Below, piece after piece: positions 1 to 41,948 of a DNA stretch of 64,000 nucleotides. Position numbers and translations under genes: made by a program. The notes below the pieces were generated by a model, which had not been told where the DNA came from, searched no databases, and worked only from the letters and a program-made list of their open reading frames with translations. The DNA comes from Sporichthya brevicatena (GTDB taxonomy: Bacteria > Actinomycetota > Actinomycetes > Sporichthyales > Sporichthyaceae): NCBI RefSeq assembly GCF_039525035.1, contig NZ_BAAAHE010000015.1, positions 77,012 to 141,011 on the forward strand. The letters run 5' to 3'. Each line of letters starts with the position of its first letter. Position 1 is the first letter of the stretch.

Positions 1-3000
1 GAAGGTAGCCACGGGCCAGACCGACGCCGGTGATGTAGAGCTCCCCGGCGACACCGGGCGGCACGGGGCGCAACCGGGAGTCCAGGACGTAGGCGACCGT
101 GTTGCGGATCGGGCGGCCGACCGTCGGCGTCGTGCTGTCGTCGGTCCCGCCGCCGAGGGTGTTGATCGTGTACTCGGTCGGGCCGTAGAGGTTGTAGCCG
201 GTGACACCGGGCGTCGTGAGCAGCCGCGACCACACGTGCTCGGGCACCGCCTCGCCGCCGAGCAGGACGAGCGGCGGGACGTGCGGGCCGTCGAGCAGCC
301 CGTGCTCGAACAGCTGCGCGGCGTAGGTCGGCGTCACGTTGACCACGTCGACGGCGTGCGCGGCGCAGTACGCCACCAGCGCCTCCGGGTCGCGGCGCAG
401 ATCCTCGTCGCAGACGTGGACCTCGTGCCCCTCGACGAGCCAGAGCAACTCCTCCCACGACATGTCGAAGGAGAACGAGACCGTGTGCGCGATCCGCAGT
501 CGCCGCCCGCCCGCCTGCGCCACCACCGGGTCGAAGATGTGCTGACGGTGATTCAGCTGCATGTTCGTCAGACCGCGATAGGGCGTGACAACGCCCTTGG
601 GCAGGCCGGTCGAGCCGGAGGTGTAGATGACGTAGGCCGGGTGCTCCAGCCGGTGCGGCACCCCGGGGGCGAAACCGGGCCGCTCGGCGTCGGCCAGCGG
701 CTCCGCGGAGAGCGCCGTCAGCGCGGCGGCCGTCGCCGGGTCGTCGAGCCGGACCTGCTCCGGGCCGCCGACGGGCAGCTGCCCGTCGCGGGCAGCGGTG
801 GTCAGGACGCAGACGGGCTCGGCGTCGGCGAGCACGAACGCGACGCGGTCGGCCGGGGTGTCGGCGTCGATCGGCAGGTAGGCCGCGCCGGTGCGCAGCA
901 CGGCGAACAGCGCGGCCACCATGTCGGCGGCACGCGGGAGCGCGAGCGCGACGACGCGTTCGGGCCCGGCGCCGCGGGCCAGCAGGGCCCGCGCGATGCG
1001 GTTGACCCGCGCCTCTAGCTCGGCGTAGGTCCAGGAACCGTCGGCGGTGACGAGCGCGACCGCGTCGGGGCAGAGCGCGGCGCGCTCGGCGAGCAGTTCG
1101 GAGATCGACTCGATGCCCGAGTCGGCGGCGGTGTCGTTCCACTCGACGAGCACCTGCTGCCGCTCGGCCGCGGTCAGGGTGTCGAGCTCGCCGACGCGGA
1201 CGCCGGGATCCGCGACGAGAACCTCGAGCACCGCCGCGAACCGGTCGAGAACGGCCTGCGCCGCGGCATCGGTCACGACGTCGGGCCGGTGGTACAGCCC
1301 GAGCACCAGCTCTGTCGTCGGGGTGACGACGAGGGTGAGCGGGTAGTGCGTGGCGTCCGCGTAGCCGACGTCGGTGATCCGGTGCCGGCGCCGGAACGCC
1401 TCCTCCTCCTCGGCGTCGTCGCCGAGGAAGTTCTGCATCACCGAGAGCGTGTCGAACAGCTGCGGGTGCCCGGACTCGCGCTGGATGCGCGCGAGCCCCA
1501 GCCAGTCGTGGCCGAGCACGGCGGAACGCTCGCGGTGCAGGCGACCGAGGAGTTCGGTGACGGTCTCGGCCGGGTCGATCCGCACGCGCGCGGGCACGGT
1601 GTTGAGGAACAACCCGATGACCGTCTCGACGTCGGGCACCGCCGGTGGGCGGCCCGACACCGTCGTGCCGAACACGACGTCACCGGAGCCGGTCAGCCCC
1701 GAGAGCACCAGGCCCCAGGCCGCGCTGACGAGCGTGTTCAGCGTGACTCCGGCGGCGCGCGCGGCGGCGCGGATCGCGTCCGACGCAGCTTCGTCGAGCG
1801 TGATGCGGCGGATGCCCGGCGGCACCGGCTCCGCCTCACCGAGCCCGGGGTGGACAAGCGTCGGGGAGTCGAGCTCGGCGAGCGCGTCGCGCCACACCGC
1901 GGCCGAGACCTCGGCGTCCTGCTCCCCCAACCAGTTCAGGTAGTCGCGGTACGAGCCGCGGCGCGGCAGCCCGGTCGCGTCGCCGCCGGAGGCGTAAAGC
2001 TCGAAAAGGTCCGCGAACAGCAGCGCGGCCGACCAGCCGTCCCAGAGCAGCAGGTGGTGGCTGAGCACGATGCGGCTGCGGTTGCCGTCGCGCAGCACGA
2101 CCGTCACCGCGAGCAGTGGCGGCGACGTGACGTCGAAGCGCCGGGCGCGGTCCGCGGCCATCACGGCAGCGAGGCGGTCGGCCTCGACGCCCGGCTCCAG
2201 GCCGCGAAGGTCCACGACGTCGAGCGGCGGCTCGACGGCGGACGCGAGGAACTGCACGGGCGCGGCCAGCCCGTCGTTGGTGAAGCCCGCGCGCAGGACC
2301 GGGGTGCGGGCGAGCAACGCCGCCAGTGCCGTGCGCAGGCGCTCGACGTCGACGGTCGTGTCGAGGTCGAAGTGGTCCTGGACGGTGTAGATGTCCCGGC
2401 GACCGGCGTCGAAGGACGCCAGGAAGAACAGGCCCTCCTGCAGCGGCGAGAGCGGCCAGATGTCCGTCACGGCCCCGCCGGGGGTCCGCGCACGATGAAA
2501 GGCGCAGACGCGGTCGATCTCCTCCTGACGGAGCGTCACGGCGGGTAGGTCGGCGGGCGTGAGCCCGGTGTTCCCGGCGGCGGCCCACGCACGCAGCTCC
2601 GCCACGGCAGCGGCGAAGTAGGTGCTCAGGGCGTCGACGTCCGCAGCGCTCAGGGCGTCGGGCACGAAGGTCCACGTCACCGCGAGCTCGGGCCCGTCCG
2701 GGCCGTCCTCGGTCAGCGCGTCGAGGGTCAGGACGTACGGGACCGGCTGCTCCGGGTCGGCCGCGGCGCCGAGCACGCCCGCCTCCGGTGCGGGCGTCCA
2801 CGGGGTGGCCGTTCCGTCGGCCGCCGGCATCCGCCCGAGGTAGTTGAACAGCACCTGCGCGCGCTCGCCGGCCGCGAGCAGTGGCGCCGACTGCGGGTTG
2901 ACGTACCGCAGCAGACCGTGGCCGAGCCCGGCGGCGGGCACGGCGCGGACGGTCTCCTTCACCCGGCGCACCGCGCCCTCGAGGGAGTCGCCCCCGGTGT

Positions 3001-6000
3001 CGAGGCGCAGCGGGTGCACGGTCGTCAGCCACCCGACGGTGCGCGAGAGGTCGAGCTCCGCCGCGCCCAGCGCGGAGGCGTCGCGGCCGTGGCCTTCGAC
3101 GTCGACGAGCACCGGACCGGTGGCGCGACCGGCGTCGGCGCGCCAGCGGTCGACGGCCCGCCCGAAGGCGACGAGCAGGACGTCCTGCACCCCCGCCCGG
3201 GCGGCTGCGGGAACGGCACCGAGCACAGCGACCGTGTCCGCAACCGGCAACCGGGTGACGGTCCGTGCGGTGTCCGCCTGTGTCCAGGTCGCCGCCGCGG
3301 CCGGGACCTCCGCCGCGACGAGACGTGCGCCCGGTGCGGTGGTGGCCGTCCAGTGCTCGAGTTCGCCCAACCGCGCGGGGCTCGCCGCCTCGTCGGCCAG
3401 GCGCCGTGCCCACGTACGGAGGGTGGTGGGCACGGCGTCCAGCGGTTCCCCGGCCCACGCCGCGGCGAGGTCGGGGAGCAGGATCCGCCACGAGACGCCG
3501 TCGACGGCGAGGTGGTGGACCACGAGCAGGAGTCGGCCCGCCTCGGCCCCGCGGTCGAACCAGACCGCGGCGACCATCTCGCCGGCCTCCGGGTCGAGCC
3601 GGTCGGCGGCCGCGGAGGTCTCGGCGGCGATGGCGGCCCGGAGGGCGTCGGCGCCGAGAGCGCGGGCGTCGACGCGGCGGAGCACGTCGGCGGCGCGGAC
3701 GCGGCCGGTCGGCTCCACCGCCAGCGACCACAGCTGCGGGACCGGCCGGGTCAGCCGCAGGCGGAGCGCGTCGTGCCGGTCGAGCAGGGCCTGCAGGGCC
3801 GTCTCGAGCCGGATCGCGTCGGCACCGGCCGGCGTGTGCACGAGCACCGACTGGCTGAAGCGGCCGATCGGCCCGCCCCGTTCGCGCAGCCAGTGGACGA
3901 CCGGCACCAACGGCACGTTCCCGACGCCGTCGGGGTCGCCGGCCGGCAGCGCTCCGGGGGCGCCGTCGGCCGTACCGTCGGTCGCGGTCTCGGCCGGCAC
4001 GGTCTCGGCCGGCACGGTCTCGGCCGGCGCGATCGCCGCCAGCGCGGCCGGGGTGCGGAGCTCGAAGATCTGGCGGGGCGTCAGGTCGATGCCGCGGCGG
4101 CGGGCCTGCGCGACCAGCGAGATCGAGATGATGCTGTCGCCGCCGAGGAAGAAGAAGTCGTCGTCGACCCCGACCTCGTCGAGGCGCAGCACGGCGGCGA
4201 ACACCTCGCACAGGGTCTGCTCGGCCGCCGTTCGTGGTTCGCGCTGCTCACCCCGCGCACGTTCGGGCGCCGGCAGCGCGGCCCGGTCCAGCTTGCCGTT
4301 CCCGGTCACCGGCAGAGCGTCGAGGACGACGACCGCGCCGGGCACGAGCCCGGCGGGGAGCGTGGCCGTCAGCTCGGCGGTGACCGCGTCCGGGTCGAGC
4401 TCCGCCCCGGTCGCCGGGACGACGTAGGCGCACAGGTACGTCCCGCCCGGCCCGTCCGTGCGCGGCACGGCAACCGCGGCGGCGACGTCGGGGCGCGCGA
4501 GGAGCGCGGCCTCGAGCTCACCGGGCTCGACCCGCTGACCGCGGATCTTCACCTGGTGGTCGGTGCGGCCGAGGTAGGTCAACGCGCCGTCGTGCCGCCA
4601 GGCGACCAGGTCACCGGTGCGGTACAGCCGCTCCCCCGGCGCCCCGTACGGGTCGGCGACGAAGCGTTCGGACGTCAGGCCCGGCCGGCCCGCGTAGCCG
4701 CGCGCCAGCTGCACGCCCGCGAGGTAGAGCTCGCCCGGGACCCCGACCGGCGCCGGCCGCAGCCAGGCGTCGAGCACGCGGACCTGCGTGTTCCACACCG
4801 GCCGGCCGATCGGCACGCCGGGCACGGACGGGAGCTCGGCGCCCGGCCGGCACGCCCATGCGGTCACGTCGACCGCGGCCTCGGTCGGACCGTAGAGGTT
4901 GTGCAGCTCGACCCCGGTGCGGTCGAGCCAGCGCTGCGCGAGCTCGGTGGAGAGCGCCTCGCCGCTGCAGACACAGCGCCGGAGCGTCGCCGGCCAGTCC
5001 GGGCCCGCTGCCGCCGCACCGCCGTCGGAGGCCAGGAACGCCGCCAGCATCGACGGGACGAAGTGCAGGGTCGTGACGCCCTCGGCGGCGATCAGCTCTC
5101 GCAGGTACGCGGGGTCGGCGTGACCGCCGGGCCGCGCGAACACCACCGCGGCGCCCTCGCAGAGCGCCCAGAAGAACTCCCACACCGAGACGTCGAAGCC
5201 CGCCGGGGTCTTCTGCAGGACGCGGTCGTCGGCGGTCAGCGGCATCGCCGACTGCATCCAGTCCAGCCGGTTCACGATCGCGCGGTGCGAGACCGCGACG
5301 CCCTTCGGCCGGCCGGTCGATCCGGAGGTGTAGATCAGGTACGCCGCGCCGTCGGGGTGCGGCTCGCGCGGGGCGGCGACGGGACACCTCGCGAGCTCCG
5401 CGGCGGTCGTGGGGTCGTCGAGCACGATCCAGCCGAGATCGCCGAGGGCCGCAGGCTCGTCCAGACCCGCACGGACGGTGATGCCGACGACCGGCCGGGC
5501 GTCGGCCACGAGGTCCCGACGCCGGGCGGCGGGCAGGTCGACCTCGACGGGCAGGTACGCGGCGCCCGCGAGCTCCACCGCGAGCAGGGCGACCATCAGC
5601 TCCGCGGATCGCGGCACCGAGACGGCGACGACGGACTCCGGGCCGACGCCGCGTTCGGCCAGCAACCCCGCCAGGCGGCCGGCCTCGTCGTGCAGCTGAC
5701 GGTAGGTCAGGTGGCGGTTTTCAGCGACGACGGCCAGCGCGTCCGGAGTCCGCGCGGCCTGGGCGGCGAGCCGGCCGGTCAGCGTGGCGTCCGGATCGGC
5801 CGGCGCGACAGCGGTGTCGTTCCAGTCGGTCAGCACCCGCGTGCGCTCGGCCGCGGCGAGCAGGTCGAGGCCGGCCGGCGTGCGGTCCGGTGCCGTGGCG
5901 AGCGACCGCAGGGCCGCGACCAGCCGGTCGGCGACGCGCTCGGCGGTCCCGGCGTCGACGAGGTCGAGCCGGTGGTGGACGCGCAGTTCGAGCTCGCGCT

Positions 6001-7207
6001 CGGGCCGGGCGACGAGGTAGAGCGGGTAGTGGGTGGCGTCGCGGCAGGTCATGCCGGTCAGGCGAACGCCACCGACCTCGGTTACCGGCGCGGTCTCCGG
6101 CCAGTTCTCGACGACGGTCATGGTGTCGAAGAGCTCACCGGTGCCGGCCGCCCGCGCGATCTCGGGCAGGCCGAGGTGCTGATGGTCGAGCAGCGCGGTC
6201 TGCGTCCGCTGCAGCGCCGTCAGGTTCTCGCCCAGCGATGCCGCCGGATCGAGTGAGACCCGCACCGGAACGGTGTTGATGCACAGGCCGAGGATCCGTT
6301 CGACGCCCTCGACCTCCGGCGAACGGCCGGCGACCGTGGTGCCGAACACGACGTCGGTGCGCCCGGTCAGCGTCGCGACCGTGAGCCCCCACGCCAGCTG
6401 GATCACCGTGCTGACGGTCGCCCCGTACTCACGGGCGACCGCGGTCAGGCGCGCGGTCGTCGCCGCGTCGAGGCGGCGGGTGACGGTGAGCGGCGACCGG
6501 TCGGCCGGCCGCCCCCGGCCCTCGGGGCGCACCAGCGTCGGCCCCGGGACGCCGGCCAGGACCGTCCGCCACTCCTCCACCGCAGCGGTGCGGTCCTGAC
6601 CGGCGAGCCATTCGAGATGGGCGCGGAAGGGCACGGGCGCCGGGAGGGCGCCGGCGTCCCCACCGGCCGCGTAGAGGTCGCAGAGCTCCTGCACGAGGAG
6701 CGGCATCGACCAGCCGTCGAGCAGGATGTGATGGTGCGTCAGTACGAGCGTGTGACGATCGGCGTCGAGGCGCACGAGCGCGAAGCGCACCAGCGGCGGG
6801 ACGCCCGGGTCGAACGGCGCGCCCTGCTCCTCGTCCGCGAAGCGCGCCAGTTCGTGCTCGCGCTTGTCGGGGTCGTCGCCCGAGAGGTCGAGTTCGCGCC
6901 AGGGCAGCTCGACGGAGCGCGGGATGAGGGCGACCGGGGCGCCGTCCTTGCGCTGGCGGAACGCGGCCCGCAGGTTCGGGTGCCGGTCGAGCAGGGCCTG
7001 GCCCGCAGCCCGTAGCCGCTCCGCCCGCAGCGGGCCTGCGAGATCGAGCGTCAGCTGGCTCGTGTACAGGTCGAGCCCGCCCGCGTCCGCGAGCCGGTGG
7101 AAGAACAGGCCCTCCTGCAGCGGGGTCAGCGGCAGGATGTCCGCGAGTCCGGAACCTTGGGTACCTGTCACAGCCCCTGTCACAGCCCCTGTCACAGCCC
7201 CTGTCAC
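1..7207 (-). CDS. Siderophore NRPS, modules 2 and 3 (C-A-T-E-C-A..., 3' end outside window)
   Basis: Multimodular non-ribosomal peptide synthetase; 2402 codons are visible and the gene continues past base 1. Domains in order: C ([15 protein letters not shown] near residue 22, HHHILLDGW near 160), A ([11 protein letters not shown] near 630), T (FFFLGGDSI near 1022), a PAETV-repeat linker (about 1060-1075), E ([10 protein letters not shown] near 1230), C ([11 protein letters not shown] near 1720), A ([11 protein letters not shown] near 2195), then the cut. Specificity residues read by eye: the first A domain gives DVWHVSLVDK, close to the serine code DVWHLSLIDK; the second gives DMENLGLINK, the code I recall for (hydroxy)ornithine. 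Module 2 should therefore add Ser and epimerise it, and module 3 should add N5-hydroxyornithine. The first GTG overlaps the upstream NRPS stop (GTGA), but four in-frame GTGs lie in a 12-bp tandem repeat, so the exact start is open. Family assignment is certain; substrates are inferred. Confidence 0.95.
3981..4031 (-). repeat. 15-bp repeats encoding a PAETV interdomain linker
   Basis: Three near-identical 15-bp units encode [14 protein letters not shown] inside the second NRPS, in the linker between the T domain of module 2 and its epimerisation domain. It resembles the Pro/Ala/Glu linkers common between NRPS domains; no function beyond a flexible spacer is inferred. Confidence 0.75.
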
Positions 7208-7211
7208 AGCC
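7166..7211 (-). repeat. 12-bp tandem repeat reiterating the GTG start of the second NRPS
   Basis: On the minus strand the unit GTGACAGGGGCT occurs three times in full plus a partial fourth copy. Every copy supplies a GTG in the frame of the downstream NRPS (7207, 7195, 7183, 7171). The first copy also contains the TGA stop of the upstream NRPS (7206-7204). The encoded N-terminus is (VTGA)3-VTG before the conserved start of the C domain. Confidence 0.9.
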
Positions 7212-10200
7212 ATTCCGCCTCGAACTCCTCGATCTCTTCCTGACTCAGCGACACCAGCGACAGGTCCGAGGGCGTGTGCCCGCCCGCGCCGGGTCCGTCG
7301 GCATGGCGCACCAGGCCCCGCAGGGCCGTGAACCAGCCCTCGGCGAGGACCCGCACGTCGGCCGGGTCGAACAACGCGGTGGGGAACGTCCAGCTGACGC
7401 CGAGTTCCGGTCCCGTCGCGGTGTCCGCCGTGAACGCGTTGACCTCGAGCGCGTAGGGCACGACGGGCATCGCCTCGTCGGCGCCGCCGGCGAGCATGCC
7501 CGCGCCCGCGACCGGGGCCCACGGCTCCCGGTCCCGCCCGACGGCGAACCGCCCGAGATAGTTGAAGCTGATCTGCGGTGCGGCGTAGCGCGCGAGCACC
7601 GTCTCCGTCTCGGGGTTGAGGTGACGCAGCAGCCCGTAGCCGATGCCGGCGTCCGGGATCGCGCGCAGCTGCTCCTTCACCCGCTTCACCGCCGCTCCCG
7701 CGGCCGGACCGCCGGCGAGCGCGTCCGCGCGGTCGACGTCGCCGGGGTCGAGCCGCACCGGGAACACGGTCGTGAACCACCCCGCGGTGCGGGAGAGGTC
7801 GACGGTCGTCCCGGTGCCCTCGGCGACCTGCTCCTCACGCCCGTGGCCCTCCAGCGCGATGAGCACGTCGGAGACGTCCGCCGTCCCGCGCCCGGCGCGC
7901 CAGTCGGCGACGGCGAGCGCGAACGCCGTGAGCAGGACGTCGTTGACGCCGCCGTGGAAGACCGCGGGCACCGACGACAGGAGCGGCTCGGTGACGTCCG
8001 CCGGCAGGGTCAGCGTCAGGCGAGTGACGGTGTCGAGGTCGCCCAGCCGGTCGAGCGCCCGGGCTCCGAGTTGCGGGTCGGCGGCGTCGAGGACGGCGGT
8101 CCACCGCTCGAGTTCGGCCACCCGCTCGGGCCGGAGGGCCTCGGCGTGGAGCACCTCCGCCCAGCGCCCGAAGGGCGTCGTCGGCTCCGGGGCCGGTTCA
8201 CCCGCCGCGGCCGCGGCCAGTTCGGGCAGCAGGACGCGCCAGGTGACCCCGTCCGTGACCCAGTGCTGAACCGCGAGCAGGAGGCGGCCCGGCCCGTCGG
8301 CGCCGGCGTCGAACCAGGTCGCGGCGAGCATCACCCCGGCCGCGGGGTCGAGCCGGCGCGCGGCCGCCGCGCCCTCGGCCCCGGCGAGTTCGTCGAGCGC
8401 CACCGCTGAGAGCGCTCCGCACTGACGAACCGTCAGCAAGGAGGTGGCGTCCACCGAGCCGCGCGGCGGCACGACGAACGACCGCTCCCCGGCCGCTTCG
8501 GAACGAACGATCCGCGCCCGCAGGACGTCGTGCCGGTCGAGCAGCGCCTGCAGGGCGTCGGTGAGCCGTTCGCGACTGAGTCCGGCCGGGGTCGCGACGA
8601 CCATCGTCTGGCTGAAGCCGTCGACGTCCGCGCCGAGCGCAGCGCACTCGTCCAGCCAGCGCATGATCGGCGTCAGGCCGAAGGTGCCGATCCCGGCGTC
8701 GGGGTCGATCGGACCAGCCGCGGCGACCGGGGTCGCGGCCCGCGCGAGCGCGGCGACCGTGCGGTGCTCGAAGACCGTGCGCGGGGTGAGCCGCAGCCCG
8801 GCCGCACGGGCGCGGATGACCAACTGGATCGCCACGATGCTGTCGCCACCGAGCGCGAAGAAGTCGTCGTCGGCGCCGACGCGCGGCAGACGGAGCACCT
8901 CGGCGACGACGCCGCAGAGGATCCGCTCCGCAGCCGTCGCCGGGGGACGATCGCCCGCCACCGCGGCGAAGTCCGGCAGGGGCAGCGCATGGCGGTCGAG
9001 CTTGCCGCTCGGGAGCAGCGGCAGGCGATCGAGGGCGACGAACGCCGACGGGACCATGTAGTCCGGCAGCCGCTCGGCGGCGTAGGTGCGCAGCGCGCCC
9101 ATCAGGGCGTGCGGGTCGCGGTGACGCGCGGGCCGGTTCGCGTACGCGCCCGGCTCGGCGCCGGTCCGCCCCGGTCGGTAGTCCCCCACCGACTCGGTGT
9201 CCCGGGTGAGCAGGGCGTCCAGTTCCCCGGCGCGGCCGGTCGCCGACCAGGTGAGGGCGACGGCGTACCCGCGGGCGCGCGCGGCCGCCGCGATCTCGCC
9301 CGGCACGGCGTCGGGAGCTGCCGCCTCCCCGCCGTCCACGGTGGCCAGCGCAGCCAGGTCGAGGGCGAGCCGCCCGTTCGGGACGCCCGTGACACGCAGC
9401 CCACGCGGGGCCCGCTCCAGACGGTCCGTCAGATCCGCGAGCCCCGCCCAGGGCACCTCGGGCAGCCCGGGCGCCTGGTCGACCGCGCCGGTGCGCAGCA
9501 CGACGTCGTAGCGGTACCGGCTCAGCTCGTTGGGGTGGTCGGCGTCCTTGACCCGCAGGTCGACGGCGGTGACGGCGGGCAGCGCCCGCGCCAGGGCCGG
9601 GAAGAAGTCCGGGTCGAGCAGCAGCTCGCCCTCCCACGCCACCGCGGCGTCGACCGCGCGGCGCAGATCCTCGACGCCGTCGACGGAGTCCCGGCGTGCC
9701 ACCTCGATCCCGGCCCGCAGGGTCCGGAGCAGCCGAAGGTTCCGCACGTCCCCGACGAACACCGCCCCGCCGGGAGCCAGGAGATCCAGCGCGCCGCGCA
9801 GGACGTCGAGCAGGTAGTCCGCGCTCGGGAAGTACTGGACGACGGAGTTGAGCACGACGGTGTCGAAGAACCCGCCCGGCAGGCCGGTCAGGTCGTCGGC
9901 GGGCTGGGCGCGCAGCTGGACGCGCTCGGCCGACGCCGGATCGGCGGCGACCCGGCCGCGCAGGCTCTCGACCGCTTCGGGCGAGAGGTCGGTACCCCAG
10001 TACGCCTCGCACTCCGGGGCCAACTCGGTCAGCAGCAGCCCGCTGCCGACGCCGAGCTCCAGCACCCGTCGCGGCCGCAGCGCGCGGATGCGCGCGACGG
10101 TCTCGGCGCGCCAGGCGCGCATCTCGGGCAGCGGGATCGGGGTCCCGTCGTAGCTGGAGTTCCAGCCGGCGAAGCCCTCGTCGAGGGCCTCGGGGCCGGC

Positions 10201-11676
10201 GGCCGTGTAGAGCAGCCGGTGCACGTCCTGCCAGGCCTGCACCTGCGCGCTCTCGGCCTCGACGTCCCGGCCGGAGCTCCGTCCGCCGGTCGCGGGGACG
10301 ACGTAGGCGACGAGCCGGCGCGCGCTCGCGCCGTCGGGTCCCGGCACGTCCCGGGCCAGCACGGCCGCGGTCTCGACGGCCTCGTGCGCGACGAGGACGG
10401 ACTCGACCTCCCCGGGCTCGATGCGGTACCCGCGGATCTTCACCTGGTCGTCGGTGCGGCCGAGGAACTCCAGCGCGCCGTCCTCGTTGACCCGCACCAG
10501 GTCGCCGGTCCGGTAGAGCCGCTCACCGGGCGCACCGAACGGGTCGGCGACGAAGCGGCCCGCAGTCAGGCCGGGGCGGTTGAGGTAGCCCCGGGCGAGG
10601 CCCGGCCCGCCGAGGTAGAGCTCGCCGGGTTCCCCGTCGGCCACGGGCACGAGCCGGTCGTCGAGGACGCGCGCGGTCGTCTGCGGGTCCGGGATCCCGA
10701 TCGGGACGATCGGGCCGGTGATGCGGTCCGGGTGCGACTCCCCCAGCGTCGAGTTCACGGTCGCCTCGGTGGGCCCGTAGGCGTTGAACATGCGCTGGTG
10801 CGGCCCGTAGCGCGCCACGAGTTCGGGCGAGACGCGTTCGGTGCCGGCGAGCAGGGTCGCGCCCGGCGGCAGCGAACAGTCCGGCGGGAGGACGGCGAGC
10901 AGCGCCGGGGGCAGGATCAGAAAGGTCGCGCCGTGCTTCGCGGCGTACTCGGTCAGTTCGGGGCCGGCCACGCGCCGCTCGGACGGGACGACGATCAGCC
11001 GCCCGCCGGAGAGGAGCCCGAGGCACAGGTCCCAGAACGCGACGTCGAAACTCGGCGACGCGAACTGCAGGATGCGATCGTCCGGGCCGATGCCGAACCG
11101 CTCAACCTGAGTGGCAATCAGTTTGTCGACGCCCCGGTGCGAGAGGACGACGCCCTTCGGTCGGCCCGTCGACCCCGACGTGTAGATCACGTACGCCGCG
11201 GAGTCGAGCAGCAGTGGTCCCCCGCGCTCGGCCGGCGTCGGTCGGTGCGGAGGCGCCGCCGCGAGAGCCGCCACGGTCGCCGGGTCGTCCAGCACCACGC
11301 GCGGCACTCCCGTGTCCGGGATCTCCGGCGCGAGGTCGGTCGTCGTCACCACGGCGACCGGGGCCGCGTCGGTGAGCATGTACTCCAGTCGCTCCGCGGG
11401 GTGATCGGCGTCGAGCGGCAGGTAGGCCGCCCCGGTGGCGAGCACCGCGACGTGCGCGACCACGAGATCGACCGTGCGCGGCAGTGCCAGCGCGACGATC
11501 CGCTCCGGACCCGCCCCCACCGCGAGCAGCCGGTGCGCGAGCCGGTTCGCGGCGGCGTCGAGCTCGGCGTAGGTGAGCGAGACGTCCTCGACGACGACGG
11601 CGACGGCGTCCGGGGCCTCCGTCACGCGGGTGGCGAAGATCGCGGGCCAGGTGCGGTCGGAATCCGGGGTGGACAC
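7204..11676 (-). CDS. Siderophore NRPS starter module: A with embedded methyltransferase, T, E
   Basis: Starter NRPS of 1490 residues with no N-terminal condensation domain. The A domain starts near residue 10 ([11 protein letters not shown] near 165, A8 motif [10 protein letters not shown] near 418). A SAM-dependent methyltransferase is inserted between A8 and A9 (motif [13 protein letters not shown] near 542), after which the A domain resumes ([10 protein letters not shown] near 872, LPSGKLDR). Then come T (FFALGGDSI near 942) and E ([10 protein letters not shown] near 1137, EGHGREE, FNYLGRF). In the E motif the first His is Gln while the second, catalytic His is kept. The specificity residues read DVWILAAVNK, which I cannot assign. 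Expected product: an N-methylated, epimerised first residue passed to the next NRPS. GTG at 11676 is preferred because an AGGGAGA stretch lies just upstream; GTG at 11730 is an in-frame alternative adding 18 residues. The gene follows the ornithine monooxygenase by 82 bp and overlaps the next NRPS. Confidence 0.95.
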
Positions 11677-11758
11677 GCGCAGGGTTCTCCCTCGGCGAGA
11701 TCGGGTGGGGATCGGGCGGGGCACGGGCACGGTCGGCGGGGCGTCGCCGACCGGTGGC

Positions 11759-13374: not shown

Positions 13375-15093
13375 GTGGAGAACCAGGACGACGCCGTCGG
13401 AAACGACAGCCGATCGGTGCTGCGGGGTGCGCTGGGTCGCCAGCGGCGCTGGGTGGGGGCGGCGGGCGCGCTGTTCATCTGCCACCAGGCGGGCGAGGCG
13501 CTGGTCCCCGTGCTGATCGGCGTGATCATCGACGAGGCCGTCGCCACCGGCGACGGGTCGCGGCTGCTCGCCTGGCTCGGGGCCTTGGCCGCGGTGTTCG
13601 CGTTCCTCTCGTTCGGCTACCGCCTCGGGGCGCGGTGCGCGGAGCGGGCATCCGAGCAGGCCGCGCACGACCTGCGGCTCCGCCTGGCGGAGCGGGTGCT
13701 CGACGACCGTGGCGGCGCCGAGGCGGGACGACTCCCCGGCGCCCTCGCCGGCCTCGCGACCTCGGACACCGCCAAGGTCGGGATCCTGGCCTTCGCCCTC
13801 CCCAGCGGTATCGCCGCGCTGGCCGGTCTGCTGGTCGGCGGGGCGGCCCTGCTGCGACTGTCGGTGCCGCTCGGACTGGTCGTCCTCCTCGGCGCTCCCC
13901 CGATGCTCTGGCTGGTCAACCTGCTGGGCAAGCCCCTCGAGGCCCGGAGCGCCGAGCAGCAGGAGCGCGCCGCGGCCTCGTTCGGCGTCGCCGCCGACCT
14001 CGTCGCCGGCCTGCGCGTCCTCAAGGGTGTCGGCGCCGAGCCGGCCGCGGTCGCGCGGTACCGGAGGGTCAGCCAGGACTCGCTGCAGGCGACGCTGCGC
14101 GCCGCCCGCGCCGACGCCGCCTACGAGGCCGCGATGATCGCCATGACCGGGCTCTTCCTCGCCGGCGTCGCCCTCCTCGGCGGCTACCTCGCGACGCAGG
14201 ACCACATCACTGTCGGCGAGCTGGTCGCCGCCGTCGGCCTCGCGCAGTTCCTGATCGGCCCGATGCAGGCGATGGCGTGGGTCGGGTCCGAGCTCGCGGC
14301 GGCCCGGGCCTCCTCCCGCCGGATCGCCGAGGTGCTCAGCTCGCCGCCGGCGATCGCGGGCGGGACGGCCGTCCCCGTCCGGCCCGTGCGCGGCGACGTC
14401 GAGCTGCGAGGCGTCCGCAGCGGATCGCTCGCCGGGCTGGACCTGACGGTCAGCTCCGGCGAGTTCGTCGGCGTCGCGGCCGACCCCGCCGACGCCCGGG
14501 CCCTGCTGCGCTGCCTGGCGCGCGAGACCGACCCCGACGGCGGCGCCGTCCTGCTCGACGGCCGGCCACTGACCGAGCTCGACCCCGGTCCGCTGCGCCG
14601 GACCCTGCTGGTCGCCGCCCACGACGCTCACCTGTTCGAGGGCAGCCTGCTCGACAACGTCCTCGACGGGCGCGGGGACGACGCACCCCGGGAGCCGGCA
14701 GCCGTCCGGGCGGCGTTGACCGCCGGCGGCGCCGACGAGGTCGCCGCGGCGCTCCCGGAAGGTGTGGCGACGACGGTCGGCGAGCGCGGACGCGGCCTGT
14801 CGGGTGGACAGCGCCAACGCGTCGCCCTGGCCCGAGCGCTCGCGGCCGACTCCCCGGTGCTCGTCCTGCACGACCCGACGACCGCCGTCGACGCGGCCAC
14901 CGAGGCCCGGCTCGCCGCCGGGATCCGCGACCTGCGGCAGGGCCGGACGACGGTCCTGCTCACGACGAGCCCGGCCCTGCTCGCGGTCACCGACCGCGTC
15001 GCGCTGGTGCGCGCGGGCCGGGTGGACGAGGTCGGCACCCACGCCGACCTCGTCGCCCGCTCCGCCGGCTACCGGGAGCTGGTGCTCCGATGA
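13375..15093 (+). CDS. ABC exporter half, TMD-NBD, with degenerate ATPase site
   Basis: Half-transporter of 572 residues: a six-helix-type exporter TMD (about 20-300) followed by an NBD. The NBD keeps the signature RGLSGGQRQR near residue 475 but has lost its own catalytic motifs. The Walker A position reads GVAADPADARAL (no GKS/T), Walker B reads VLVLHDPTT (Asp to His, Glu to Asp), and the H-loop position reads LLTTSP. It overlaps the next gene by ATGA, and that gene has the complementary intact motifs, so the two should form a heterodimer with one working composite site. In this locus a role in siderophore export, or import in the manner of mycobacterial IrtAB, is plausible. GTG at 13375 follows a GAAGGG stretch at 9 nt; GTG at 13339 is an alternative adding 12 residues but leaves no room for its AGGAG. 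Confidence 0.9.
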   Translation: MENQDDAVGNDSRSVLRGALGRQRRWVGAAGALFICHQAGEALVPVLIGVIIDEAVATGDGSRLLAWLGALAAVFAFLSFGYRLGARCAERASEQAAHDLRLRLAERVLDDRGGAEAGRLPGALAGLATSDTAKVGILAFALPSGIAALAGLLVGGAALLRLSVPLGLVVLLGAPPMLWLVNLLGKPLEARSAEQQERAAASFGVAADLVAGLRVLKGVGAEPAAVARYRRVSQDSLQATLRAARADAAYEAAMIAMTGLFLAGVALLGGYLATQDHITVGELVAAVGLAQFLIGPMQAMAWVGSELAAARASSRRIAEVLSSPPAIAGGTAVPVRPVRGDVELRGVRSGSLAGLDLTVSSGEFVGVAADPADARALLRCLARETDPDGGAVLLDGRPLTELDPGPLRRTLLVAAHDAHLFEGSLLDNVLDGRGDDAPREPAAVRAALTAGGADEVAAALPEGVATTVGERGRGLSGGQRQRVALARALAADSPVLVLHDPTTAVDAATEARLAAGIRDLRQGRTTVLLTTSPALLAVTDRVALVRAGRVDEVGTHADLVARSAGYRELVLR

Positions 15094-16862
15094 CCGCGAC
15101 GGATCGGCGACTCCCCGTCGCCCCCGGCCGGCGGACCTGGGCCGCGCTGCGCACCCTCGCGCGGCCGCATCGGACGCTGGCGACGGCCGCCCTGCTGACG
15201 GCGGTCGCCGCGACCGCCGTGTTCCTGCTGACGGCGCCCGTCCTCGGCAACATCGTCGACCGGGTGATCGACGACCGGCCGGCCTCGGCGCTGACCGGCC
15301 CGATCACGCTGCTCGTCGCCATTGCGGTGGTGTACGCGGTCCTCGCGATGGTGAGCATCGTCCTGATCGCCCGCCTCGGCGAGCAGATCCTCGCCGGCCT
15401 GCGTGAGCAGTTCGTCGAGCGCGCGCTCGCGCTGCCGCTGGAACAGGTCGAGGCCGCGGGCTCCGGCGACCTGACCTCCCGCGTCACCAACGACGTCTCG
15501 GTCATCAGCCAGGGCATCCGGCAGGCACTGCCCGAGTTCACGCGGGCGGCGCTCACGATCGCCCTCACCGTCGTCGGCCTGGCGGTGCTCGACTGGCGCT
15601 TCGCGCTCGCCGCCCTCTGCGCGGCGCCGATCCAGGTGATCACCGTCCGCTGGTACCTGCGCCACGCTCCGCCGCTGTACGCCGAGCAGCGGGCGGCGGT
15701 CGGTGACCTGCAGCAGGAGCTGCTCGACTCGATCTCCGGCGCCCCGACGGTCCGTGCGTTCGGGCTCCGGCACTCGCACCTGGCGAAGGTGACCACCCGC
15801 TCCCAGCACTCGGTCGACCTGACGCTCGCGGCCGTCCGGCTCCAGACGCGGTTCTTCGCGCGGCTGAACCTGGCCGAGCTCGTCGGGCTGTCCGCGGTGC
15901 TCGCGACCGGCTACGTGCTGGTCGAGAACGGTGACGTCACCGTCGGCGCCGCGAGCGCTGCCGCGCTCTACTTCGCGAACCTGTTCAACCCGATCAACGT
16001 CGCCCTCGCCTCCCTCGACGAGGCGCAGTCGGCCGCGGCGAGCCTGGCCCGGCTCGTCGGCGTCCTCGACCTCCCGCCCGAGCCCGAGCCGGCGAACCCG
16101 GCCGCGCCGCCGTCCGACCCGGCCCGCGTCGACGTTCAGGGCGTGGGGCACGCCTACGTCGCCGGGCACGACGTGCTCGACGGCATCGAGCTGACGGTGG
16201 CGGCGGGCGAGCGGGTCGCCGTGGTCGGCACGAGCGGCGCCGGCAAGACGACGCTGGCCAAGCTCGTCGCCGGCGTCCACACCCCGGCGCGGGGCCGGAT
16301 CCGGCTCGACGGCGTCGACGCCGCCGACCTGGGTCCCGCCGGCGTGCGCCGGACGGTCGCCCTGGTGACCCAGGAGGTGCACGTGTTCGCCGGGCCGCTG
16401 GCCGACGACCTGCGCCTGGTCCGCCCGGACGCGTCCGACGAGGCCCTGCGCGGCGCCCTGACCGCCGTCGGTGCGGCCGCGTGGGTGGACCTGCTCCCCG
16501 AGGGTCTCGCGACCGAGGTCGGCGAGGGCGGGCACCAGCTCACCGTGGCGCAGGCGCAGCAGCTCGCGCTGGCGCGGTTGCTGCTGGTGGACCCACCGGT
16601 GGCGATCCTCGACGAGGCCACCGCCGAGGCCGGCAGCGCGGGTGCCCGGGCGCTGGAGGCCGCCGCGACCGAGGCCATCACCGGCCGTACGGCGCTGGTC
16701 GTGGCCCATCGGCTGACGCAGGCCGCCACGGCCGACCGCGTGGTCGTCCTGGACGCCGGCCGCGTGGTCGAGGTGGGCACCCACGACGACCTGGTCGCGG
16801 CCGGGGGCACCTACGCCCGGCTGTGGTCGGCGTGGTCCGCCGAACGACCGGATTCGCCGTGA
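15090..16862 (+). CDS. ABC exporter half, TMD-NBD, with intact Walker motifs
   Basis: Partner half-transporter of 590 residues. The TMD (about 25-310) has hydrophobic segments such as LLVAIAVVYAVLAMVSIV. The NBD has Walker A GTSGAGKTT near residue 380, Walker B VAILDEAT near 505 and H-loop LVVAHRLT, all intact. Its signature is degenerate: QLTVAQAQQLALAR instead of LSGGQ. Paired with the preceding half, which supplies LSGGQ, it forms one consensus ATP site; the other site is degenerate on both faces. The ATG overlaps the upstream TGA (ATGA), consistent with translational coupling and a 1:1 complex. Probable siderophore-related transport; the substrate is inferred from context. Confidence 0.93.
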   Translation: MTATDRRLPVAPGRRTWAALRTLARPHRTLATAALLTAVAATAVFLLTAPVLGNIVDRVIDDRPASALTGPITLLVAIAVVYAVLAMVSIVLIARLGEQILAGLREQFVERALALPLEQVEAAGSGDLTSRVTNDVSVISQGIRQALPEFTRAALTIALTVVGLAVLDWRFALAALCAAPIQVITVRWYLRHAPPLYAEQRAAVGDLQQELLDSISGAPTVRAFGLRHSHLAKVTTRSQHSVDLTLAAVRLQTRFFARLNLAELVGLSAVLATGYVLVENGDVTVGAASAAALYFANLFNPINVALASLDEAQSAAASLARLVGVLDLPPEPEPANPAAPPSDPARVDVQGVGHAYVAGHDVLDGIELTVAAGERVAVVGTSGAGKTTLAKLVAGVHTPARGRIRLDGVDAADLGPAGVRRTVALVTQEVHVFAGPLADDLRLVRPDASDEALRGALTAVGAAAWVDLLPEGLATEVGEGGHQLTVAQAQQLALARLLLVDPPVAILDEATAEAGSAGARALEAAATEAITGRTALVVAHRLTQAATADRVVVLDAGRVVEVGTHDDLVAAGGTYARLWSAWSAERPDSP

Positions 16863-16882
16863 CCCCTGGCGCCCGGCCCATC

Positions 16883-16901
16883 GCAGGCTAGCCTTGCCTA
16901 A
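16883..16901. promoter_or_regulatory. IdeR/DmdR1-like iron box before the siderophore uptake genes
   Basis: The minus strand reads TTAGGCAAGGCTAGCCTGC, matching consensus TTAGGTTAGGCTAACCTAA at 14 of 19 positions. It lies in the 78-bp gap after the exporter genes and about 40 bp upstream of the first FecCD permease, the right place to repress an iron-uptake transcript. It implies that the permease genes have their own iron-controlled promoter. Confidence 0.8.
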
Positions 16902-16940
16902 CCTGGTCGGGTTCCGCACGCTCGATCCGGTTCGCCGAGG

Positions 16941-18023
16941 ATGGGTTCCGACCGCATGACCGTGACGCACGACCGCCCGAACGCTTCGGCGTCGGCCCGG
17001 CCGTCGGCATCCGGCTCCTCGGCGCGGCCACGGCGGCGCCGCCCGCTGATCGTCCTCGGCCTGACCGGGGTGGTCCTGCTCTGCATCGTCCTGTCGATCG
17101 CGATCGGGGCCAAGCCGATCCCGATCGGCGACGTCTGGGCCGGGCTGGTGAGCCCGGAGAACAGCGAGAACGACGTCATCATCCGATCGCTGCGGGTGCC
17201 CCGGACGGTCCTCGGCCTGCTGGTCGGAGCAGCGCTCGGCATCGCCGGGGCCCTCATGCAGGGCCACACGCGGAACCCGCTCGCCGACCCGGGGCTGCTC
17301 GGCGTCGAGGCCGGCGCTGCGTTCGCCGTGGTCCTCGCGATCTACTCCTTCGGCGTCACCGACACCCTCGGCTTCGTCTGGTTCGCGTTCGCGGGGGCGC
17401 TGGTCGCCTCCTTGGTCGTGTTCGCGCTCGGGTCGCTCGGGCAGGGCGCCGCGACCCCGGTGACGCTCGCCCTCGCGGGGGCGGCCGTCTCCGCCCTGCT
17501 CGGGTCCTTCACGTCCGCGCTGATCCTGATGGATCGTCAGACCCTCGACGTGTTCCGGTTCTGGCAGGTCGGCGCGCTGACCGGCCGGCCGACCCGCGTG
17601 ATCTGGGAGGTGCTGCCCTTCCTGATCGTCGGGCTGCTCCTCGCGCTCTACAACGCGCCCGCGCTGAACCTGCTCTCCCTCGGCGAGGACGTCGCGCGCA
17701 GCCTGGGCCAGTCGGTGTTCACCACCCGCGCGATCGGCATCGCGTCGATCACCCTGCTGACGGGCGCAGCCGTCGCCGCCGCCGGCCCGATCGGCTTCGT
17801 CGGGCTGGTGGTGCCGCACGTCGCGCGCATCTTCACCGGTCCCGACTACCGCTGGCTGCTGCCGTGCTCGGCCCTGCTCGGCGGCTCGCTGGTGCTGCTC
17901 ACCGACACGATCGGCCGCGTCGTCGTGCGGCCCGGGGAGATGCAGGTCGGCATCATCATGGCCCTCGTCGGCGCACCGTTCTTCATCTGGCTCGTCCGCC
18001 GTCGCCGGTTGGCGGCGCTGTGA
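16941..18023 (+). CDS. Ferric-siderophore ABC importer permease, FecCD family (first)
   Basis: Polytopic inner-membrane permease of 360 residues, the usual FecCD/BtuC length. After a short Ser/Arg-rich cytosolic N-terminus the first helix is LIVLGLTGVVLLCIVLSIAIG. The family block LRVPRTVLGLLVGAALGIAG is present, as are NPLADPGLLGVEAGAA and, near the C-terminus, GPIGFVGLVVPHVAR, the cytoplasmic coupling region that contacts the ATPase. It probably pairs with the second permease and the FecE-type ATPase downstream. No substrate-binding protein is encoded nearby. ATG at 16956 is an alternative start; neither has an ideal ribosome site (GAGG directly abuts 16941). The gene is under the iron box at 16883. 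Confidence 0.95.
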   Translation: MGSDRMTVTHDRPNASASARPSASGSSARPRRRRPLIVLGLTGVVLLCIVLSIAIGAKPIPIGDVWAGLVSPENSENDVIIRSLRVPRTVLGLLVGAALGIAGALMQGHTRNPLADPGLLGVEAGAAFAVVLAIYSFGVTDTLGFVWFAFAGALVASLVVFALGSLGQGAATPVTLALAGAAVSALLGSFTSALILMDRQTLDVFRFWQVGALTGRPTRVIWEVLPFLIVGLLLALYNAPALNLLSLGEDVARSLGQSVFTTRAIGIASITLLTGAAVAAAGPIGFVGLVVPHVARIFTGPDYRWLLPCSALLGGSLVLLTDTIGRVVVRPGEMQVGIIMALVGAPFFIWLVRRRRLAAL

Positions 18024-18055
18024 GCGACACCGTGAGCGACACCGTGAGCGCCACC
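18020..18055 (+). repeat. 12-bp tandem repeat reiterating the GTG start of the second permease
   Basis: Three head-to-tail copies of GTGAGCGACACC, the last with one change (GCCACC), begin at the GTGA stop/start overlap of the two permease genes. Each copy puts a GTG in frame. The arrangement is the same as at the NRPS junction at 7166-7211, although the repeat sequence is different. Confidence 0.9.
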
Positions 18056-19138
18056 GCGACGACGAGGGACCCCGCCGTCCCCGGCCGGCCGCCGTTCCGC
18101 CTCGGCCCGGCGATCTCGGGCGTCTGGCGGCCGCGGTTCCTGGTCGTGGCGCTGATCGGCGCCGTGCTGGCACTGCTCGCGCTCGCCGCCGACGTCGGCC
18201 GCGGCGACTACCCGATCTCGATCGTCGACGTCCTGCGCGTGCTCGCCGGCGGCGGGACCGACGCCCAGCGGTTCATCGTCATCGACCTCCGCCTGCCCCG
18301 CGCGCTCACCGGGGTTCTCGTGGGTGCGGCGCTCGGCCTGTCCGGGGCGATCACGGCCTCGATCGCGCGCAACGCCCTCGCGACGCCCGACATCCTCGGC
18401 ATCACGCAGGGCGCCAGCGCGGCCGCCGTCGCCGTGATCCTGCTCGGCGGGTCCGGCGGCGTCATCGGCACGGTCGGCACCCAACTCGGCCTGCCGCTCG
18501 CGGCGCTGGCCGGGGGCGTCGCCACCGCGACCCTGATCTATCTGCTCGCCTATCGACGAGGCATCGACGGGTACCGCTTGGTGCTCGTCGGCATCGGCGT
18601 GAACGCGGTGCTCGCGTCGGTGGTCAGCTACCTGCTGGTCAAGGCCCGTGTCGAGGACGCCGCGCGCGCCCAGGTCTGGATGACCGGCAGCCTCAACGGC
18701 CGCGGCTGGGAGCACGTGCGCCCGGTGGCGGTCGCGCTGGCGATCCTCGTCCCGATCTCGCTGATCCTCGTCTTCGTCCTCGGTGCGCTGCAGTACAGCG
18801 ACGACACCGTGCGGGGTCTGGGCATCCGCCTGAACGCCGCGCGGACCGGGCTGCTGCTCTGCGCCGTCGCCCTCGCCGCCGTCGCCACCGCGTGCGCCGG
18901 CCCGATCGGCTTCGTCGCGTTCGTCGCCCCGCAGGCGGCGATCCGCGTCACCGGCGGTTCGCGACCACCGTTGCTCGCGTCCGCCACGTTCGGGGCCGCG
19001 CTCGTGGTCGCGTCCGACGTCGTCGCCCGCACGATGCTCGGCGACCTTGAGCTCCCCGTCGGGATCGTGACCTCTGCCGTCGGGGCGCCGTTCCTGCTCT
19101 ACCTGCTCGCCGTCAACACGCGGAAGGTGCGCCTGTGA
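18020..19138 (+). CDS. Ferric-siderophore ABC importer permease, FecCD family (second)
   Basis: Second BtuC/FecCD-type permease, 372 residues, expected to heterodimerise with the first. Conserved segments: LRLPRALTGVLVGAALGLSG, ARNALATPDILGITQGASAAA, and the coupling region CAGPIGFVAFVAPQAAIRVTG. The GTG start overlaps the upstream TGA (GTGA) and sits in a 12-bp tandem repeat that supplies three in-frame GTGs (18020, 18032, 18044). The encoded N-terminus, (VSDT)2-VSAT, is not conserved in the family, so any of the three could initiate. Confidence 0.95.
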   Translation: MSDTVSDTVSATATTRDPAVPGRPPFRLGPAISGVWRPRFLVVALIGAVLALLALAADVGRGDYPISIVDVLRVLAGGGTDAQRFIVIDLRLPRALTGVLVGAALGLSGAITASIARNALATPDILGITQGASAAAVAVILLGGSGGVIGTVGTQLGLPLAALAGGVATATLIYLLAYRRGIDGYRLVLVGIGVNAVLASVVSYLLVKARVEDAARAQVWMTGSLNGRGWEHVRPVAVALAILVPISLILVFVLGALQYSDDTVRGLGIRLNAARTGLLLCAVALAAVATACAGPIGFVAFVAPQAAIRVTGGSRPPLLASATFGAALVVASDVVARTMLGDLELPVGIVTSAVGAPFLLYLLAVNTRKVRL

Positions 19139-20169
19139 CCTCGACGCTCCCCGTGGGTCCGCTGCCCACCGCCCCGCCGCCCGGAGCTGCCTATCCGGCG
19201 CCCTCGACGCCGGCTGCCACCGCGTCGAACGGCACCGCCCCGAACGGCACCGCGCGGGCGATCGGGGGCCCGTCGCGTCTGCGCGCCGAGGGGATCCGCC
19301 TCGGCTACGGCGAGCAGGTGATCGTCGAGCACCTCGACCTCGACCTGATGGCCGGTGCGGTCACCGCGGTGATCGGCCCCAACGGGTGCGGCAAGTCCAC
19401 CGTGCTCCGGGCGCTGGCGCGGCTGATGCCGACCCGGGCGGGCCACGTGGTCCTCGACGGCAAGCGGATCGACAAGGTGCCGACCAAGGAGGTCGCGCGC
19501 ACCCTCGGCGTCCTCCCCCAGGCGCCGACGGCGCCCGAGGGCCTCACGGTCGCCGACCTCGTCGCGCGCGGCCGGCACCCCCACCAGGCCTGGTACCGGC
19601 AGTGGTCCTCCGACGACGAGGAGTCCGTCGCCGCCGCGCTGCAGTGGACCGGGATCGCCGACCTCGCCGAGCGCACCGTCGACACGCTCTCCGGCGGTCA
19701 GCGCCAGCGCGCGTGGATCTCGATGGCGCTCGCGCAGGGCACCGACCTGCTCCTGCTCGACGAGCCGACGACCTTCCTCGACCTGGCTCACCAGGTCGAC
19801 GTCCTCGACCTCGTCGAGCGCCTGAACCGCGAGGCCGGCCGGACCGTGCTGATGGTCCTGCACGACCTCAACCTCGCGGCCCGCTACTCCGACCACCTGA
19901 TCGCGATGAAGGCCGGCCGGATCGTCGCCGCCGGTCCCCCGCGCGAGGTGCTCACCGAGCAACTGCTCGCCGAGGTGTTCGGCCTCGAGGCCCGCGTCAT
20001 CCCGGACCCGGTCTCCGGAAGCCCGCTCGTCGTCCCGATCGGCAGTCGGCACCGCTACGTCGCCGACGGCCCGGCCCTCGAGGACCTCGACGCCGAGGGC
20101 CTGCACGCCGGGAACCCGCCGGCCGAGCTCGACGACCCGTTCCCGCCGGACCCGGTCTACGGACCCTGA
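19135..20169 (+). CDS. Ferric-siderophore ABC importer ATPase, FecE/FepC family
   Basis: Cytoplasmic ATPase of 344 residues that powers the two FecCD permeases. Walker A GPNGCGKST near residue 82, Q-loop region LGVLPQAP, signature DTLSGGQRQRAWISMA, Walker B LLLLDEPTTFLDL and H-loop VLHDLNLA are all present. About 55 N-terminal residues rich in Pro/Ala/Ser, including a repeated NGTAP/NGTAR encoded by a 15-bp duplication, precede the core and exceed the usual family length of about 260-275; the acidic Pro-rich C-terminus is also long. The GTG overlaps the upstream TGA. It is the last gene of the rightward siderophore arm and converges on hisH. Confidence 0.95.
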   Translation: MTSTLPVGPLPTAPPPGAAYPAPSTPAATASNGTAPNGTARAIGGPSRLRAEGIRLGYGEQVIVEHLDLDLMAGAVTAVIGPNGCGKSTVLRALARLMPTRAGHVVLDGKRIDKVPTKEVARTLGVLPQAPTAPEGLTVADLVARGRHPHQAWYRQWSSDDEESVAAALQWTGIADLAERTVDTLSGGQRQRAWISMALAQGTDLLLLDEPTTFLDLAHQVDVLDLVERLNREAGRTVLMVLHDLNLAARYSDHLIAMKAGRIVAAGPPREVLTEQLLAEVFGLEARVIPDPVSGSPLVVPIGSRHRYVADGPALEDLDAEGLHAGNPPAELDDPFPPDPVYGP

Positions 20170-36635: not shown

Positions 36636-37835
36636 TCAGTACCGGCGCTCGGCCCGCTGCTTGCAGGCGACGCAGAGCGTGGCCCGCGGGAACGCCTGGA
36701 GCCGGGCCTTCCCGATCGGGTCGCCGCACGACTCGCACTGGCCGTAGGTGCCGTCCTCGAGGCGCGCGAGCGCCCGCTCGTCCTGCTGGAGCATGTCGAG
36801 GGCGTTGTTGACCAGCGACATCTCCTGCTCGCGCTCGAGCGTCTTGGTGCCGGCATCCGCCTGGTCTTCCCCGGAGCCGTCGCCGTAGTCGCGCAGCAGC
36901 GCCTCCCGGTCGGCCTGGGCGACCGCGATCTCGGCCCGGAGCCGGTCGACGTCCTTGCCGAGCTCGGCCCGGACCTCCTTGAGCTCCTCGTTCGTCCAGG
37001 CCGTCTCCCCCTCCCGGACCGCGAGCTTGCCGGTCGGCTTCGCGGCCGGCTTCGCGGCCGGAGCCGTGGCGGGAGCCTTTGCCGCGGTCTTGGTCGGGGC
37101 CTTCGCCGGCACCGGGGCCGGCGCCTCCGGGGCGGGTTTCGCGGCGGGAGCGGCCACCTGCCGGGCGATCGCGGCGGCCTTGCGCGCGGGAGCCGTCGCC
37201 CGCCGCGCGAGCGTCGCCGCCCGGGCCAACGTCCCGGTCTTCTTCGCGGGTGCTGCCTTCTTCGCGGGTGCTGCCTTCTTCGCCGCCGGGGCCTTCTTCG
37301 CGGGCGCCGTCTTCTTCGCCGCCGGGGCGTTCTTGGCCGGGGCCTTCTTGGCCGGCGCGGACTTCTTCACCGCCGCCGGCTTGGCGGGCGCAGCCTTTTC
37401 CGCCGGCGCGGTCTTTTTCGCCGGGGCCTTCTTCACCGCCGCCTTCTTCACCCCCGCCTTCTTGGCGGGCGCGGCTTTTCTCGCCGGCGCGGATTTCGTG
37501 GCGACGGCCTTCTTCGCGACCGGGCTCGCCTTTTTCGCCGAAGCCTTCTTCGCGGCCGCCTTCGTGGCCGGGGCCGCTTTTGTGGCCGCGGCCTTCTTCA
37601 CCGGGGCGGCCTTCTTGACCGCGGCCTTCTTCGCCGGGGCGGCCTTCTTCACCGGGGCGGACTGCTTCGCCGGCGCAGCCTTCCTCGCGGCCGGGGCCTT
37701 CTTCGCCGGGGCGGCCTTCTTCACCGGGGCGGACTGCTTCGCCGGCGCAGCCTTCCTCGCGGCCGGGGCCTTCTTCGCCGGCGCGGCTCGCTTCGCCGAG
37801 GCCGCCTTCGTTGCCGGCCCTCCGCTCCTCACCAT
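36636..37835 (-). CDS. DksA/TraR zinc-finger protein with histone H1-like Lys/Ala tail
   Basis: 399 residues in two parts. Residues 1 to about 265 are a low-complexity tail of PAKK/APVKK/KAAP repeats like histone H1 or mycobacterial HU tails, predicted to bind nucleic acid. The C-terminal about 125 residues have a coiled-coil-like helix ([22 protein letters not shown]) and a C4 zinc finger, [26 protein letters not shown] in two pieces (Cys pairs near residues 366/369 and 387/390), typical of DksA/TraR proteins acting in the RNA polymerase secondary channel. The tail contains a perfect 72-bp tandem duplication. A GAGAAGGG site lies about 7 nt before the ATG; GTG at 37832 is possible. Function inferred: a nucleoid- or RNAP-associated regulator. 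Confidence 0.88.
37633..37776 (-). repeat. Perfect 72-bp tandem duplication in the histone-like tail
   Basis: Two identical head-to-tail 72-bp units (37633-37704 and 37705-37776), each encoding 24 residues that include [19 protein letters not shown]. The exact nucleotide identity contrasts with the diverged shorter repeats around it and indicates a recent expansion within the tail. Confidence 0.9.
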
Positions 37836-41776: not shown

Positions 41777-41912
41777 GGGATGACGTCCCGCACGGGGTGC
41801 CTGTCAGCCCTCGTGCGGGCTGACACCCCCCTGCTCAGGGATGACGTCCCGCACGGGGTGCCTGTCAGCCCTCGTGCGGGCTGACACCCCGGGCGCCCGG
41901 GACGTCATCCCG
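41777..41912. repeat. Duplicated 53-bp palindromic (REP-like) element downstream of ileS
   Basis: Two identical 53-bp copies (41777-41829 and 41838-41890) separated by 8 bp, followed by an inverted copy of the first 13 bases (GGGACGTCATCCC, 41899-41911). Within each copy CCCGCACG pairs with CGTGCGGG and TGTCAGCC with GGCTGACA, so a unit can fold into nested stems. It lies in the 262-bp gap between convergent ileS and divIVA. No protein coding is apparent. Confidence 0.85.
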
Positions 41913-41948
41913 CAGTGGGAGCGGGGCCGCAGAGCTGCTGCAGACGCG

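Follow-up and report, generated by a model that had tools for sequence, protein, structure and literature searches.

The junction of two NRPS genes of Sporichthya brevicatena carries a 12-bp tandem repeat which places a start-type codon in every unit. The question raised by this locus is whether these codons act as alternative starts that set the ratio of the two subunits, or whether the repeat has simply lengthened the tail of a protein. It was addressed in the 64,000-nt stretch of DNA analysed here (the window, from the genome G000) and by comparison with a sister species (G001).

Anatomy of the junction and the start of the downstream NRPS

The features of the junction are as follows.

1..7213, minus strand: downstream NRPS subunit, about 5,600 aa, running past the window edge, C domain first
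7164..7211, minus strand: tandem array of four perfect 12-bp units, coding strand GGCTGTGACAGG x4, encoding (TGAV)n
7204..7207, minus strand: GTGA overlap, made up of GTG1 (7207-7205) and the upstream NRPS stop TGA (7206-7204)
7204..11730, minus strand: upstream NRPS subunit, A-MT-T-E, whose C-terminus is the COM donor region
7211..7213, minus strand: in-frame ATG directly preceding the array, at which the downstream NRPS may start (MAVTGAV...), giving a 10-nt overlap with the upstream gene
7218..7230, minus strand: SD-like region GAGGAGTTCGAGG, common to ATG and GTG1, including GAGGAG/GAGG

TRF analysis of positions 7164-7211 (minus strand) revealed a period of 12, 4.0 copies and 100% matches. 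On the coding strand, GGA ATG GCT is followed by GTG ACA GGG GCT three times and then by GTG ACA GGT ACC, and the four in-frame GTGs lie at 7207, 7195, 7183 and 7171 (minus strand). The upstream NRPS ends in ...EAEWL*, its TGA being placed inside the first GTGA, and TGA recurs in the upstream NRPS frame in every repeat unit. The preliminary description of a 12-bp repeat with four in-frame GTGs, the first in a GTGA overlap, and of a unit that keeps the downstream frame while carrying a start-type codon, is thereby borne out. With the upstream stop situated in the first unit and a unit length divisible by 3, extra copies leave the upstream protein as it is and keep the downstream frame.

Being composed of tandem units of one length, a multiple of 3, within a coding region, the array is an in-frame coding minisatellite. 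It is not expected by chance from base composition, as the window holds 5 perfect arrays of at least 2.5 copies and a period of at least 9, against 0 in 40 random 64-kb sequences matched to it in order-2 composition. The 12-bp unit is private to the NRPS junction, with no other site in the G000 genome. The stop and start lie as close as in TeRe-coupled pairs, with a GTGA overlap, or a 10-nt overlap when counted from the ATG.

The ATG at 7213-7211, two codons 5' of GTG1, was absent from the preliminary description. The best SD duplex energies are −8.2 kcal/mol for the ATG, −6.7 for GTG1 and −5.7 for GTG2-4, as compared to medians of −5.3 kcal/mol for called starts and −2.7 for interior GTGs. 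The moderate pairing of GTG2-4, equalled by 15% of interior GTGs, is a point against confining initiation to the ATG and GTG1. Since the array is preceded by an ATG with an SD-like sequence, which the sister species retains, the GTGs may be plain valine codons. Reinitiation is reported to drop steeply with distance from the stop, and where start codons are added near a stop the closest one wins, in data from E. coli and Haloferax (PMC10666635). As GTG2, GTG3 and GTG4 lie 8, 20 and 32 nt beyond the upstream stop, translation of the downstream NRPS is likely to begin at the 5'-most starts, ATG or GTG1.

These observations bear on the proposal, made in the preliminary description, that each unit adds a usable reinitiation start and that copy number sets the downstream:upstream subunit ratio. 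It is in keeping with the in-frame GTG of each unit, with the difference in copy number between the sister species (below) and with the association of 4-nt overlaps with subunits of heteromeric complexes (PMC10666635), and the three repeat junctions described below all join likely partners (NRPS/NRPS, ABC/ABC and FecCD/FecCD). However, the distances of GTG2-4 and the stronger initiation region already present at ATG/GTG1 argue against it, and the junction gives no structural RNA signal (z −0.76). Tuning of the subunit ratio through start number is therefore improbable; the general turnover of arrays, and tail repeats which lack start codons or lie off the junctions, leave it further without support.

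Position of the repeat-encoded tail at the COM docking site

Sequence matches to the TycA, TycB, BacC and PvdL structures identify the two subunits as a COM docking pair, in which an upstream E domain with its COM donor faces a downstream N-terminal C domain. When the two subunits are aligned to BacC (9rde), a fused E-COM-C protein, the match of the upstream NRPS ends at chain residue 470 and that of the downstream NRPS begins at 474, corresponding to query residue 20. Residues 1-19 of the downstream NRPS, the whole repeat included, have no counterpart in BacC (9rde). These alignments place the (TGAV)n tail between the E and C domains, at the point where the COM docking domain is split.

Counted from the ATG up to the PL[ST]P motif, the tail comprises 27 residues, and that of the sister species 23. 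In other actinobacteria, 17 homologous starts of N-terminal C domains have tails of mostly about 10-16 residues, and a TGAV-like repeat was found in none (0/17). Nine of the 17 overlap the upstream NRPS gene by exactly 4 nt (NTGA), with tails of 10-11 residues.

Repeat length might alternatively set the length of the N-terminal linker and hence E/C docking, selection then acting on the protein and not on translation. The location of the tail exactly at the COM split site and the variation of tail lengths across the cluster fit such a role. Yet a 3-residue GGS insertion at the COM split site of BacC caused no discernible loss of product, unlike nearby changes (PMC12402864), which suggests little effect of length, and relatives do with tails of about 10 residues. 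Selection on the linker is accordingly considered unlikely.

Array turnover between the sister species and in the siderophore cluster

The only orthologue of the junction elsewhere in the GTDB order (five genomes) is that of the sister species, which is 95% identical here and carries three diverged units, GCTGTGACCGGG, GCTGTGACAGGG and GCTGTGCCGGGT, with the ATG and SD region unchanged. Copy number at the NRPS junction thus differs between species, 4 units in G000 against 3 in G001, as in a VNTR, one genome per species being compared. An invariant copy number, which the preliminary description named as counting against its proposal, is not seen at the species level. Because the sister species carries three units, the array is older than the species split.

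It is scarcely credible that the copy-number difference is an assembly error. G000 is indeed a draft of 89 contigs with short N runs; the 48-bp array, however, is shorter than ordinary reads and free of N, and the sister genome is a single 5.5-Mb contig whose three units bear their own substitutions.

Tandem arrays generally differ in length between the two species, whether or not they contain start codons. Length differs in 21 of the 27 G000 arrays with an orthologous G001 site, most of them without a start codon, and in 17 of 22 in the reciprocal test of G001 arrays against G000, both sets being biased toward difference by their choice as arrays in the query genome. Further arrays and junctions of the window are listed below.

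3985..4028, minus strand: 15-bp x 2.9 array inside the downstream NRPS, off any junction; three units versus one in the sister species
15090..15093, plus strand: ATGA junction of two ABC exporter genes; single copy in the window, about 3 copies of the 15-bp ATGAGCGGGACCGAG in G001
18020..18056, plus strand: second array, GTGAGCGACACC x about 3, at the GTGA junction of two FecCD permease genes

Elsewhere in the window, an intergenic 61-bp unit with internal inverted repeats is present in 2.3 copies (41777-41914), and a long degenerate Lys/Ala-rich repeat (37235-37818) precedes a DksA/TraR zinc-finger protein (36636-37835).

The neighbours of the NRPS genes include an L-lysine/L-ornithine monooxygenase, an ABC exporter pair, two FecCD permeases and an ABC ATPase, a gene set which points to a hydroxamate-type siderophore cluster. 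The second case noted at 18020 in the preliminary description is real, with 3.1 copies and 96% matches by TRF at 18020-18056, reading VSDTVSDTVSAT. The corresponding site of the sister species has only one GTGA start, and the tail after it is longer and unrelated. At the ABC/ABC exporter junction of that species (G001 4893714, L167), about three copies of the 15-bp unit give MSGTEMSGTGMSGTN.

The junction census covered 1.25 Mb of G000 and 1.6 Mb of G001, using a simple home-made codon-usage gene caller. Start-multiplying repeats were found at 4 of 8 GTGA/ATGA-type (NTGA) junctions in the siderophore cluster versus 0 of 470 outside it (478 junctions, two genomes), the four being NRPS/NRPS in both species, FecCD/FecCD in G000 and ABC/ABC in G001. 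The corresponding p of 3e-8 is overstated, because there are three independent events, two of which had prompted the finding; the ABC/ABC case in G001 is the independent evidence for the concentration. None was found at 35 NTGA junctions in 79 other actinobacterial NRPS loci, and literature searches yielded no direct precedent for start-codon tandem repeats.

Duplications containing start codons are not enriched at starts (1.8 per 1000, versus 1.5 per 1000 at interior start-type codons, p = 0.57; G000 and 1.2 Mb of G001), nor in the start zone (4.3 versus 2.4, p = 0.16). Genome-wide enrichment at gene starts, as for contingency loci, was therefore not observed, the enrichment being restricted to the siderophore cluster. 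A genome-wide system of start-codon repeats was rejected in view of the 0/470 NTGA junctions outside the cluster. Two start repeats were recorded at other kinds of site: a GTGAACCCGACT-type degenerate 12-bp repeat (VNTTVNPTVNPAVNPTV) at a gene start outside operon junctions (G001 4536742-4536790, L209), and a 9-bp start repeat GTGACTGAGATGACTGAG at a short overlap, conserved in both species (G000 C7:94346, L194; G001 1143168, L179).

Indels in N-terminal tails amount to 15.6 per 1000 residues between the species in the cluster (7 events in 10 genes), against 2.4, while those in coding interiors are ordinary (1.28 in the cluster versus 1.0), and a general mutational hot spot in the cluster is thus unsupported for coding interiors. 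The density of perfect arrays in the cluster is about twice the genome average (16.5 versus 7.5 and 16.4 versus 9.4 per 100 kb), on small counts. Ser, Thr, Ala, Pro and Gly abound in the tails. Hypervariable, repeat-prone tails with ordinary interiors are seen between the species over window positions 13375-20169 and their G001 counterpart. Tail repeats without a start codon occur in the same cluster, APAT in the ATPase of the sister species and NGTA in that of G000, and a VIDG repeat lies 19 codons into the first exporter gene (ABC1) of the sister species, away from any junction.

The recurrence of start-codon repeats at cluster junctions (NRPS/NRPS in both species, FecCD/FecCD in one, ABC/ABC in the other) could reflect selection on the number of restart sites or on tail length per subunit pair, amounting to slippage-driven tuning of ratios across the cluster. 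This is very improbable. Relaxed tail length is a better explanation of the recurrence than start-site tuning, because N-terminal tails in the cluster are hypervariable in general, including repeats without start codons. The concentration of start repeats at NTGA junctions in the cluster (half of them there, none outside) counts against a purely uniform neutral process, and it is the accumulation of tail repeats in a single cluster that deserves further attention.

Proposed origin and relation to known systems

The array is most probably the result of in-frame minisatellite turnover, which has lengthened a disordered N-terminal linker of the downstream NRPS, translation starting at the ATG or GTG1. 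Such turnover would be harmless both at the stop/start overlap and at the COM split site, and known processes would then account for all of the observations. The ancestral junction was probably an ordinary 4-nt RTGA overlap with a short N-terminal tail, as in other actinobacterial NRPS pairs, with the extra ATG two codons 5' of the overlap start. In the common ancestor, a 12-bp unit lying directly 3' of the start would have been multiplied by replication slippage or unequal recombination, and one unit would have been gained or lost since the species split. Each copy inserts four residues, TGAV, after the end of the COM donor helix and ahead of the first C-domain strand, where insertion is known to be tolerated. 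Translation may be coupled to that of the upstream gene, from the ATG or the overlapping GTG1, with the later GTGs serving mainly as valine codons.

The array resembles in-frame coding minisatellites/VNTRs, which arise by slipped-strand mispairing, in its short unit of a multiple of 3, its variable copy number between close relatives and the change of protein length without frameshift; it differs in straddling a stop/start overlap, with the upstream stop in unit 1 and a start-type codon in every unit. Like TeRe gene pairs with 4-nt NTGA overlaps, it joins two subunits of one complex through a GTGA overlap (PMC6728339, PMC10666635), but here start-type codons repeat 3' of the overlap and an extra ATG lies upstream. 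As in the COM docking E/C pairs of TycA/TycB and BacB/BacC, the C-terminus of E with its COM donor faces an N-terminal C domain, whereas the repeat-encoded tail of about 15-19 residues before the acceptor is absent from the 17 homologues. The MIRU repeats of mycobacteria, likewise actinobacteria, are variable-copy tandem repeats at overlapping stop/start operon junctions. They are, however, much longer, dispersed elements, as compared to the private 12-bp unit here.

If the array is ordinary, it illustrates how an in-frame repeat can expand without damage where a stop and a start overlap, since one gene is protected by the upstream stop and added residues are tolerated at the COM split site, and it cautions against taking serial start-type codons for regulation. 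Should selection lie behind the cluster-wide pattern, this would represent a simple, testable adjustment of subunit ratios in assembly lines.
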